Shown here piece after piece: positions 6,512 to 17,628 of a stretch of 50,121 nt of DNA. The notes beneath the pieces are model-generated. The model ran no database searches, was not told the origin of the DNA, and was given only the letters and a program-made list of their open reading frames with translations. Source of the DNA: Gammaproteobacteria bacterium (GTDB taxonomy: Bacteria > Pseudomonadota > Gammaproteobacteria > Steroidobacterales > Steroidobacteraceae); the NCBI GenBank assembly GCA_027307325.1, contig DAHUXE010000063.1:1-50121 (forward strand), in the 5' to 3' direction. The number at the start of each line of letters is the position of its first letter. Within the stretch, counting starts at the first letter, position 1. A program made the translations under genes and the position numbers.

Positions 6512-7093
6512 ATGGCACGTCGCGCTCTGGTGACGGCGGCATTATCGCTGCTGCTTGCCGGAGCTTCCGCAGCCGGTGCAACACCGGCCTTCAAGGCCGG
6601 CACCTTCGACCCGCCGCGGCTCGCGCCGGACTTTTCGCTCCCGGGCTCCGACGGACACGAGCTGCGCCTCGACCGCTTCCGCGGCAAGGTCGTGTTGCTC
6701 GCCTTCGGTTACTCCTCGTGCACGGAGGTCTGCCCAGTGACGCTCGCGACGTTCGCCGCCGCCCGCCGCAAGCTCGGGGCCGCGGCCGCCGACGTGCAGG
6801 TGGTGTACGTGACGGTCGACCCGCAGCGCGACGTGCCCGAGCGCCTGAAGAAGTTCCTGGGAAGCTTCGACAAGACCTTCATCGGCGGCACCGGCACCGA
6901 GGCACAGCTCGCGGCGGTGCGCAAGGAATACGGAGTGACCGCAAAGAGGATCCCCTATGGCGACAGCTACACCTACAGCCACTCTTCTTTCACTTATCTG
7001 ATCGATCGCGGAGGCCGGATTCGGGCGCTGATGCCTTACGGACACAGCCCTGACGACTACGTCAATGACCTGACCATTCTGCTCGGCGAGTAG
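6512..7093 (+). CDS. SCO1/SenC/PrrC-family copper chaperone
   Basis: The real gene is the last 193 codons of the track ORF 6107-7093. I start it at the ATG at 6512, 26 bp after the binding-protein stop; a GTG at 6482 is possible. A signal peptide or N-terminal anchor (ALVTAALSLLLAGASAAG) precedes a thioredoxin-like domain. The copper ligands of SCO proteins are intact: C70 and C74 in CTEVC, and H157 in YSHSSF. SCO proteins deliver copper to, or reduce, the CuA site of cytochrome oxidase or nitrous oxide reductase. No oxidase gene is nearby; the gene lies inside an ABC transporter operon instead. Confidence 0.92.
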   Translation: MARRALVTAALSLLLAGASAAGATPAFKAGTFDPPRLAPDFSLPGSDGHELRLDRFRGKVVLLAFGYSSCTEVCPVTLATFAAARRKLGAAAADVQVVYVTVDPQRDVPERLKKFLGSFDKTFIGGTGTEAQLAAVRKEYGVTAKRIPYGDSYTYSHSSFTYLIDRGGRIRALMPYGHSPDDYVNDLTILLGE

Positions 7094-7577: not shown

Positions 7578-8336
7578 ATGCATCGCCTCAGGGCAGCCCT
7601 GCCGTCGCTGGCCGTCATCGCCGTGCTCATCGCCGTATGGTGGGCGGCTGTCATAGCCACCGGCAGCCTGATCTTCCCCACGCCCTGGGCAGTCGTCACC
7701 GGAACCTGGGAGCTGATAGAGAACGGCACGCTCTGGCAGCACATCAGCGCCTCGCTCATGAGGGTCCTCATCGGCTTCGGGCTTGCCGCGTGCGTCGCCG
7801 TGCCGCTCGGCCTGTGGATGGGCTGGGTGCGCGGCGCCTACCGGATGCTGAATCCGCTCTTCCAGATCCTGCGGCCCATCTCCCCCATCGCTTGGATTCC
7901 GATCGCGATTCTCTGGTTCGGTGTCGGCGATGCCTCGCCCATCTACCTCATCTTCATCTCGTCCGTGTTTCCCATGGTGGTGCAGACCACCGTGGGCGTG
8001 CACACGATCGAGAAGCGCTATCTGCGCGCCGCCGAGAATTTCGGCGTCTCCCGCCGCACGTTGTTCACGCGCGTCGTGATCCCGGCGGTGCTGCCGCAAA
8101 TCGTGGTGGGGATGCGCATCGGACTCGGTGTTGCCTGGCTGGTCGTAGTGGCCGCGGAAATGATCGCCCTGCATTCCGGGCTCGGCTACATGATCATGGA
8201 TTCGCGCAACGCCGGGAACCGCTACGACCTGGTAGTCGCCGGCATGATCATCATCGGTCTGATCGGGCTGTCGCTCGACGGGTTGATGCGCCTGCTCGAA
8301 GGGATGCGGTGGGTCAGGTGGCGCTATGCGCACTAA
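7578..8336 (+). CDS. NitT/TauT-family ABC transporter permease
   Basis: This 252-residue inner-membrane protein has about six hydrophobic helices and the SsuC/TauC-type coupling motif (ENFGVSRRTLFTRVVIPAVLPQIVVGMRIGLGVAWL), which docks the ATPase. The ATG is preceded by GGAG. The 3' end overlaps the ATPase gene by 11 bp. It would form the channel for whatever the upstream lipoprotein binds. Sequence resemblance is to aliphatic-sulfonate, taurine and nitrate permeases, but these relatives also carry many other small ligands. Confidence 0.92.
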   Translation: MHRLRAALPSLAVIAVLIAVWWAAVIATGSLIFPTPWAVVTGTWELIENGTLWQHISASLMRVLIGFGLAACVAVPLGLWMGWVRGAYRMLNPLFQILRPISPIAWIPIAILWFGVGDASPIYLIFISSVFPMVVQTTVGVHTIEKRYLRAAENFGVSRRTLFTRVVIPAVLPQIVVGMRIGLGVAWLVVVAAEMIALHSGLGYMIMDSRNAGNRYDLVVAGMIIIGLIGLSLDGLMRLLEGMRWVRWRYAH

Positions 8337-15070: not shown

Positions 15071-17146
15071 TCAGTCCGGAAACTTCAATTCCCGCAAGAC
15101 CGCCTGAAAGCGCGGCTCGTTGCGCAAGGGGTCCATCATCGGATCGGTCTTCAGGAAGGACAGCCCCGCGTCGCGCACGCGCACCGCCTTTTCAAGCAAC
15201 TCGAGCGCCTTGGTGCGATCGCCCCACTGCGCGTAGACCATTGCGTACGCGTAAGCGTAGTCCTCGCCTAGGGCCGCCTTGAATTTTGTCAACGCTGCCT
15301 CGGCATCCGAATGCCGCCCGAGCTTGTCGTAAACGATCGGCAAACACTGCTGGCTTGCCCAGTAGTCCGGGTGGGTCTCGCAGGACGCGCGGGCGCTTTG
15401 CAGGTCACCGAGCGCATAGAGGGCGAGGCCACGCCCCCCGTAAGAGAACTTGTAGTCGGGTGCAAGCCGGATGGCTTCCGTGAAGGCCGCGACCGCTTGC
15501 TCGTAGCGACGCGCAAGGTAGAGTGCATCGCCGAGCACGATCTGGCTTCTGTAATCGAGCGGGTCCAGCACGGCTGCGTATCGGAGTGCGGTAAGACTCT
15601 CTGCGGCCTTGCCCATCATCGCGGCAAAATGACCGCTCATCTGCAACACTCGCGCCGTGCCCGGCGCAAGTGCCCGGGCGCGCTCGTATTCTTGACTCGC
15701 TCTCTTGAGGTCAAGGCGACCTTCGAACACGTATGCGAGTGCTGAGTGCGCTTGGGAGAGCTCGGGCGCAAGCGCAATCGCCTGGCGGGCATCTGCCTCG
15801 GCTCTTTCCAGGCCTGCGCGAGCCGCAGCTCCGGTGGTCAACTCTTGTGTGTATTGGCTCAGGGCTTCGGCTCGGCCCGCGTAGGCGAGCGCGAAGTTCG
15901 GGTCCAGGCGAATCGCCTCCGTGTACGCTGAAATCGCCGTGGGAATCCCCGTAGCGTCCCGTCTGGAAATGTACGCCTTTGAAGCGCGTAAGTAAGTATC
16001 AAATGCGGCCGGGTTGTTGGTGCCGCCGAGCTCGATTCTGGCGGCTTCACTCCCGAGCAGCGTGATCTTGAGTGCACTCGCCACGGCGCTGGCGATCTCG
16101 GTCTGGAGCTTGAGCACATCGCTGATATCTCGGTCGTAGGTTTGCGACCACAGGTGGAAGCCGGTAACCGCGCTGTTCAGCTGCGCGGTGATGCGCATCC
16201 GATGGCCCGACCGCCGTACGCTTCCTTCTAGCACCGTAGCGACGTTCAGCTTATGGGCGACGTCCGCGATATCCGGATGCTCCCTGAATGAGAACGACGA
16301 CGTCCGGGCCGCGACCTGCAGTCCGTCGATGTGCGCAAGGGAATTGAGCAATTCTTCCGTGAGTCCGTCGGAGAAATACTCCTGCTCCCTGTCTCCGCTG
16401 ATATTCACGAACGGCAGTACGGCAATGGAGTGCGGCGGCGGGGAGAAGACAGTCGCAGCAGTGGGCGCGCCGCTCGCAGGGAGCGTCGACTGCAGAGGCG
16501 CTTCCACACGGACACTGGTGAGGCCCGGTCCCGAGCGTGCGCGCCAGAGCGCATAGACGCCTGTGAGCAGCGTCGCCGCGGCGAGCGCAGCGATCAGGGC
16601 CAGGGTTGACAACCGCGGACGCTGAACCGCAGCAGTCGCACTGGCTGTGGATGAAGTCGCCCCGTCCCGGACGGGCGGTTCGTGCCCGCTCGCTATCGGC
16701 TTGGGCGCAACGAGAGCGGCTTCCGGCGGCGCCGTCGGCTCAGTGCGCGAAGGGGGCGCGGGTGCTGGCGACACCTCAGCGGCGGACGCTGGCACGGCAG
16801 CCGACGCGGCTGAGGCAGCTTCAGGGTCGGGGTCGAGCGCTCCGATGAAGCGGTAGCCGCGTCTCGGGAGCGTCTCGATATAGCGTGGCGTCTCGGACGT
16901 GTCCCCGAGGGCGCTGCGCAGCTTGCGGATCACGGTATTGAGGCCGGTGTCGAAGTCGACCACGCCCCGGGGCCAGAGGAGCCCGATCAGCTGCTCGCGC
17001 GTCACGACGCTGCCGGGGTGAGCGATCAGCTCCCGCAGCACCTGCACCGGCTGCTCTTGCAGACGGATTCGGGTGCCGCCGCGCTCGAGATCCCCCGACT
17101 CCGGGTCGAGAACCCACCCATCGAAGCGGAGTTTCCTGCTGCTCAC
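15071..17146 (-). CDS. CadC-like membrane transcriptional regulator with winged helix, TolB-like domain and TPR repeats
   Basis: This 691-residue protein starts at GTG. Residues ~5-105 form an OmpR/PhoB-type winged helix (VLRELIAHPGSVVTREQLIGLLWP, RKLRSALGD, ETLPRRGYRF). A Pro/Ala-rich linker and a single membrane segment (LALIAALAAATLLTGVYALW, about residue 180-200) follow. The C-terminal part holds a TolB/adenylate-cyclase-associated module (SIAVLPFVNISGDREQEYFSDGLTEELLNSLA) and roughly six TPR repeats. This architecture senses envelope or cytosolic signals and binds DNA directly from the membrane. It diverges from an urcA gene, and 11-bp-phased direct repeats lie immediately upstream of its start. 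Confidence 0.9.
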   Translation of the reverse strand: MSSRKLRFDGWVLDPESGDLERGGTRIRLQEQPVQVLRELIAHPGSVVTREQLIGLLWPRGVVDFDTGLNTVIRKLRSALGDTSETPRYIETLPRRGYRFIGALDPDPEAASAASAAVPASAAEVSPAPAPPSRTEPTAPPEAALVAPKPIASGHEPPVRDGATSSTASATAAVQRPRLSTLALIAALAAATLLTGVYALWRARSGPGLTSVRVEAPLQSTLPASGAPTAATVFSPPPHSIAVLPFVNISGDREQEYFSDGLTEELLNSLAHIDGLQVAARTSSFSFREHPDIADVAHKLNVATVLEGSVRRSGHRMRITAQLNSAVTGFHLWSQTYDRDISDVLKLQTEIASAVASALKITLLGSEAARIELGGTNNPAAFDTYLRASKAYISRRDATGIPTAISAYTEAIRLDPNFALAYAGRAEALSQYTQELTTGAAARAGLERAEADARQAIALAPELSQAHSALAYVFEGRLDLKRASQEYERARALAPGTARVLQMSGHFAAMMGKAAESLTALRYAAVLDPLDYRSQIVLGDALYLARRYEQAVAAFTEAIRLAPDYKFSYGGRGLALYALGDLQSARASCETHPDYWASQQCLPIVYDKLGRHSDAEAALTKFKAALGEDYAYAYAMVYAQWGDRTKALELLEKAVRVRDAGLSFLKTDPMMDPLRNEPRFQAVLRELKFPD

Positions 17147-17147
17147 G

Positions 17148-17196
17148 CCAGATCAGCACCAGATCAGAGTTAATTCAGCAATAGGTCAGCGATCAG
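17148..17196. promoter_or_regulatory. 11-bp-phased TCAG direct repeats, probable winged-helix operator
   Basis: TCAG occurs at 17153, 17164, 17175 and 17186, exactly 11 bp apart, and again at 17193. The first two units are identical over CCAGATCAG. OmpR/PhoB-family winged-helix proteins characteristically bind head-to-tail direct repeats with an 11-bp period. The array begins 2 bp upstream of the CadC-like regulator's GTG and lies about 85 bp upstream of urcA, so it could serve autoregulation and control of urcA. Confidence 0.6.
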
Positions 17197-17280
17197 CCAT
17201 GGAGTGGGGGCGGCCCCCCGGCGATTCTGCACCCCGCACAGAACTCGGAACCGAAACCCGATACACACCAGGAGACCGCC

Positions 17281-17628
17281 ATGAATCGCTTCACGACCAC
17301 GATGATGATCTCTGCGCTGGCATTCGGCTATCAGTTGGCCAACGCCGCTCCTTCCCAGGATGCGCCTTCCGTCATTGTCCACTTCGCTGATCTTGATCTT
17401 GCGCACGCCGACGGCGTCGCGGTGCTCTACCGGCGCCTGAAAGGTGCCGCGGAGTCGGTCTGCGCTGCCCAGGACCGTCGCGATCTCGGCAGCCAGATGC
17501 GCTTCAGAACGTGCTGGCAAAGCGCCCTCGGCGCGGCGGTGACCAAGGTCGACCGGCCCGCGTTGGCCGCATACTACCGAGCGGAGCTCAAAGGCCGCAA
17601 TGCAACAATTCAGATCGCTCAGAAGTAG
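17281..17628 (+). CDS. UrcA family secreted protein
   Basis: This 115-residue protein starts at an ATG with AGGAGA upstream. It has a signal peptide (MISALAFGYQLANAAP) and the UrcA pattern: VHFADLDLAHADGVAVLYRRLKGAAESVC, then a second Cys in RTCWQSALGAAV and a conserved VDRPALAAYYRA. The two cysteines probably form a disulfide in the periplasm. The family is widespread in sphingomonads, caulobacters and xanthomonad-like bacteria; its function is unknown. It is divergent from the CadC-like regulator and followed by a terminator, so it is a single-gene unit. Confidence 0.88.
   Translation: MNRFTTTMMISALAFGYQLANAAPSQDAPSVIVHFADLDLAHADGVAVLYRRLKGAAESVCAAQDRRDLGSQMRFRTCWQSALGAAVTKVDRPALAAYYRAELKGRNATIQIAQK

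Follow-up and report, generated by a model that had tools for sequence, protein, structure and literature searches.

In the gap between a gene encoding a winged-helix regulator and a divergent gene of the UrcA family, an array of direct repeats with an exact 11-bp period is predicted, with a probability of roughly 0.78, to be the operator of the adjacent, apparently membrane-anchored regulator, through which this protein would regulate its own gene and control urcA. This is the best explanation of the sequence, and binding, stoichiometry, sign of control and signal are all inferred in it. The array lies in the window, by which the whole analysed stretch of 50,121 nucleotides is meant, and the genome of the window is referred to as G000. 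CadC-like one-component membrane regulators number ten or more in some genomes of the order and their targets are mostly unknown; the UrcA protein, for its part, has no known function. From an array that goes with the DNA-binding domain one obtains a definite candidate site, a putative target gene (urcA) and, for several subfamilies of these regulators at once, a recognition code open to testing.

The array and its two flanking genes

The original prediction spoke of four TCAG repeats, and direct reading of the window finds them at 17153, 17164, 17175 and 17186, with exactly the 11-bp spacing that had been claimed. The count, however, has to be raised, since an in-register fifth unit (CCAT on the forward strand, ATGG on that of the regulator) makes this an array of five (Table 1). 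Read on the regulator strand, from 17200 to 17146, it comprises ATGG followed by four CTGA at an exact 11-bp period, in the order ATGGCTGATCG CTGACCTATTG CTGAATTAACT CTGATCTGGTG CTGATCTGGCG, and runs into the GTG start codon (17146-17144, minus strand), from which the nearest TCAG repeat is 6 bp away. The claim that the array abuts this codon in a gap common to the regulator and urcA holds as well: the last unit touches the GTG, and the array ends about 80 bp short of the urcA start codon. The ATGG of the first unit is kept in register in six related loci (G028, G265, G329, G331, G283 and G146). Another TCAG, at 17193, does not keep the register (+7) and, being probably incidental, was discarded as a unit of the array.

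Table 1. Positions of the array, its units and the neighbouring genes in the window
Feature	Position	Strand	Remarks
Operator-like array, five 11-bp direct-repeat units, half-site NTGR	17146..17200	-	Reads toward regulator gene
Unit 1, ATGGCTGATCG	17190..17200	-	In-register ATGG (CCAT at 17197-17200, forward strand)
Unit 2, CTGACCTATTG	17179..17189	-	TCAG at 17186
Unit 3, CTGAATTAACT	17168..17178	-	TCAG at 17175
Unit 4, CTGATCTGGTG	17157..17167	-	TCAG at 17164
Unit 5, CTGATCTGGCG	17146..17156	-	TCAG at 17153; final base is the first base of GTG
Regulator, 691 aa	15071..17146	-	N-terminal OmpR/PhoB-type winged helix, C-terminal TPR repeats
Winged-helix DNA-binding domain (PF00486), aa 24-100	16847..17077	-	E 1.7e-15
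UrcA family gene, 115 aa, divergent	17281..17628	+	TIGR04433; apparent signal peptide

As had been anticipated, the regulator carries an OmpR/PhoB-type winged helix, whose nearest solved structures are those of CadC (5ju7, E 3.7e-12) and ToxR (8b4b, E 9e-10), followed by response regulators that include PhoB (1gxp, E 2e-7). A hydrophobic stretch at about aa 180-200, noticed on reading the translation by eye, gives the protein one apparent transmembrane helix, and neither a receiver domain nor a BTA domain (the criterion for SARPs) occurs among its Pfam hits. Against the CadC equivalog NF007540 it scores 81.6 bits, below the 400-bit cut-off, with the best stretch at aa 1-149. The divergent gene is assigned to the UrcA family with 71 bits (cut-off 25; E 6.7e-20). 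UrcA family genes amount to six in G000 (with contigs C117, C143, C184 and C27 among their locations) and, among the four examined, only the copy in the window combines an array with an adjacent N-terminal winged-helix gene; no clear array was seen at C128, where the other N-terminal winged-helix paralogue of this genome is encoded. The genome also encodes nine other proteins with a winged helix, 226-270 aa in length, the majority of which are presumably response regulators.

The array stands out from its background. The pattern TCAG-N7-TCAG-N7-TCAG gives two overlapping matches within the window, against 0.02 expected from shuffles, and elsewhere in the 2,984,702-bp genome it is absent from both strands. 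Extended to four copies (CTGA/TCAG), it has its sole exact match in the genome here, and the next-best sites carry two mismatches, a level at which our own estimate of the chance expectation is about 1-2 sites. Three of these, C37:6804 (apparently between two genes), C54:13252 (at a gene end) and C165:23880 (inside a long ORF), were accordingly rejected as further arrays, being at chance level. On contig C37, degenerate CTGA arrays with 2-3 mismatches, at 6804-6840 and 7946-7993 (L309 and L313), flank an apparent lipoprotein gene; they are perhaps further targets, or chance.

In the proposed mechanism, several cytoplasmic winged-helix domains would sit head to tail on the array, one per 11-bp turn, each with its recognition helix on an NTGA half-site. 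The array runs up to the start codon of the regulator and lies in the gap shared with urcA, so that autoregulation by the occupied array and control of urcA would be expected, with urcA as the likeliest second target. The sign of this control is not readable from the sequence, because a scan of 17050-17320 found no sigma-70-like promoter in the gap; for this reason, and because unit 5 reaches into the GTG, autorepression is favoured, in which the bound protein would cover the promoter or the start. Inspection by eye for a leaderless promoter, with its -10 element in unit 4 or 5, led to the rejection of this option, since no TATAAT-like hexamer fits both G000 and G028.

Conservation of the array and of its divergent neighbour

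The original prediction was to fall if the repeats were not conserved where regulator and urcA occur together, and on this count it stands. Six further divergent loci were found, and all of them carry TGA units in 11-bp register (7 of 7 with that of the window, from several genera and two families); four (G034, G146:C9, G256 and G278) came from crossing the UrcA and winged-helix searches. Among periods of 7-16, 11 is the best, and in one locus tied best, at the seven loci (shuffle p 0.003-0.027 each), for a half-site, TGA, that was picked after the window had been seen, and with near-relative pairs (G000/G028 and G146/G256) that bring the independent urcA loci to about five rather than seven. 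In G028, of the same genus, the regulator has a winged helix 77% identical to that of G000, its gene and urcA are divergently oriented, and between them stands ATGGACCCGGT ATGAACCCTTG CTGACTTATCT CTGACTTGAGC, after which the last unit is one base out of step. In G111, which belongs to another family, the winged helix is 47% identical, UrcA is again divergent and four CTGA units follow one another at exactly 11 bp. The remaining four loci show CTGA/TGA units that are 11 or 22 bp apart, the latter spacing being present in G146 and G256, with one 10-bp step in G278.

The array is kept while the sensor part of the regulator varies: TPR repeats in the window, a PD40 beta-propeller in the C-terminal part of the G028 protein, and no large sensor in the 245-aa protein of G111. 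In all, three of the seven urcA-locus regulators have unrelated sensor parts. A 245-aa regulator divergent from urcA (L113:1474-2210) consists of the winged helix, one hydrophobic segment and almost no sensor part. The divergent gene may vary too, since G265 and G329 have the array beside a gene other than urcA; the array therefore goes with the DNA-binding domain, and not with urcA or with the sensor. Could it, then, serve the autoregulation of the regulator only, urcA being a neighbour and not a target? The units read toward the regulator, abut its start and stop about 80 bp before the urcA start codon, and arrays without urcA alongside are what would be expected of such a site. The divergent urcA layout nevertheless recurs at the seven loci, across winged helices whose identity falls to 47% or less, which makes this a possible but doubtful account, and the control of both genes the preferred one.

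In the reverse search, four exact CTGA at 11 bp were found in 17 of 396 genomes from the order. A winged-helix regulator on the same strand follows directly in three cases (G000, G111 and G198); the remaining matches are simple repeats, several of them near-perfect, or come from a family f7 set where no winged-helix gene was detected alongside, so that four CTGA copies alone are insufficient to call such an operator. The f7 set (L373, L375-L379 and L382) consists of arrays of four to five CTGA at 11 bp, and is possibly the regulon of another OmpR-type protein. In one of these f7 genomes, G179, two such arrays lie 1.2 kb from each other, one on each strand.

Short tandem repeats do arise neutrally, and the simple repeats just mentioned are a reminder of it, so the units in the window might be thought a product of chance or of neutral duplication, devoid of function. 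At the four loci that are closest (G000, G028, G265 and G329), however, 14-16 of 16 half-site positions agree (88-100%), compared with 9-14 of 28 spacer positions (32-50%), and unit columns 2-4 are identical in all four; tandem duplication was rejected on these grounds, as the spacers are dissimilar and show no duplication, whereas the half-sites are shared between species. Together with the 0.02 matches expected per window, the recurrence at seven urcA loci and an enrichment of the 11-bp spacing across the regulator class that is replicated in held-out proteins, this renders a functionless origin highly improbable.

Arrays and half-sites across the regulator class

The survey covered 153 N-terminal winged-helix regulators, reduced to 111 by clustering at 75% identity, with identity required in at least 5 of 7 columns for a strict three-copy upstream repeat. 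Such repeats were found at 11 bp in 21 regulators, at 10 bp in six and at 22 bp in three, with 0-1 at each of the other spacings from 7 to 24; about 80% of the regulators have no strict array. A 4-mer test gave 15 in the 130 bp adjoining the gene, against 0-3 in farther 130-bp windows, and repeats were scarce in the controls (3 of 431 far-upstream stretches and 1 of 29 response-regulator promoters). Among 29 non-redundant held-out regulators, fetched once the criterion had been fixed, five have repeats at 11 bp and at most one at each other spacing. Self-adjacent arrays are thus the mark of a sizeable minority of a little-studied class of regulators.

In other subfamilies the array lies 30-100 bp before the start, where activation may be as plausible as repression. 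The divergent neighbours of arrays, judged by eye, are often exported proteins, as would be expected for a membrane sensor. A subfamily of regulators of about 960-1035 aa (L081, L082, L085, L088, L089, L096 and L097) shares the block CTGGCATTTTT CTGGCAAACTT CCTGCCG, an 11-bp direct repeat located about 45 bp before the start. The three-copy repeats at 10 bp (L090, L199, L217, L224, L238 and L255), for example CTGAAACGGT CTGAAATCTC CTGAAGCGAG, resemble the spacing of OmpR.

The half-site changes with the recognition helix. The helix DALV-C-QELRKAL is paired with CCGGG (L086, L202 and the held-out L326), ALASR-KSARR with C-TGGAG-like units (L205, L226, L230 and L262), ALTRA-MKARRAV with TGAC or GACC (L256, L268 and the held-out L332 and L342), and the GLN--RKLR group, to which the window belongs, with CTGA. 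Array similarity tracks winged-helix identity (rho 0.22, p 0.003), and pairs at 60-75% identity have a mean array similarity of 4.0 with arrays versus 1.0 without them. For pairs of less than 60% identity significance is lost (p 0.14), and a weak positive correlation (p 0.025) is seen in the no-array control too; the covariation therefore rests on pairs of 50-75% identity and on the held-out subfamily match. It is put at even odds that the class of N-terminal winged-helix membrane regulators has an operator of its own immediately before the gene, with three to six half-sites spaced by 11 bp, or in some cases by 10 or 22 bp, and with a half-site that follows the recognition helix, which would make the targets of very many orphan regulators predictable from sequence.

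This covariation also bears on the possibility that the array is the operator of a different OmpR-family protein, such as a response regulator, with the adjacent regulator merely one of its targets. Candidates do exist, given the nine further winged-helix proteins of the genome, and the control of urcA in Caulobacter by the two-component system UzcRS (PMC8963506), as well as the f7 genomes with CTGA arrays at genes lacking a winged-helix neighbour, would fit such a scheme. Nevertheless, the site of a global regulator should recur, and the genome has a single exact copy of this array; moreover, the half-sites vary in step with the recognition helix of the neighbouring regulator, held-out loci included, and the arrays go with its winged-helix domain even beside genes other than urcA (G265 and G329). 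A foreign regulator is therefore quite unlikely, and the adjacent protein remains the preferred owner of the site.

Relation to known regulatory systems

PhoB binds pho boxes as head-to-tail direct repeats with an 11-bp period, and the pho half-site is CTGTCA. The winged-helix fold and the head-to-tail 11-bp repeats are common to PhoB and the system of the window, and CTGTCA resembles the CTGA(C) found here; PhoB, however, is a soluble, phosphorylated response regulator, whereas the protein of the window has its winged helix at the N-terminus, is apparently anchored in the membrane and has no receiver domain. As an operator the array is of a known kind, and the useful part is the class-wide link. 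In the open literature searched, no description was found of self-adjacent 11-bp arrays for the TPR/CadC-type class, only work on SARPs and on CadC.

CadC and ToxR, the best solved winged-helix relatives of the protein, have a cytoplasmic winged helix, a transmembrane helix and a periplasmic sensor, a succession that the protein itself, with its apparent transmembrane helix, would share. The original label "CadC-like" suits it even though it misses the CadC equivalog cut-off. The label does not extend to the operator, which is PhoB/SARP-like: for E. coli CadC two head-to-head TTAxxxxT sites have been reported (PMC5430869), compared with the 11-bp direct repeats described here. The direct repeats to which SARPs bind are spaced at 11 or 22 bp (PMC10936776), and both spacings are seen at urcA loci; members such as AfsR have an N-terminal OmpR-type DNA-binding domain and, when large, TPR repeats; they are nonetheless soluble and possess a BTA domain, while the present regulator appears to be membrane-anchored and gives no BTA match. 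Lastly, the urcA gene of Caulobacter, which is controlled by UzcRS, offers a parallel in that a gene of the UrcA family has a dedicated regulator (here a proposed one) and repeated upstream sites (PMC8963506), but UzcRS is of the two-component type and its motif is CATTAC-N6-TTAA, in contrast to the one-component regulator and the CTGA repeats of the window.
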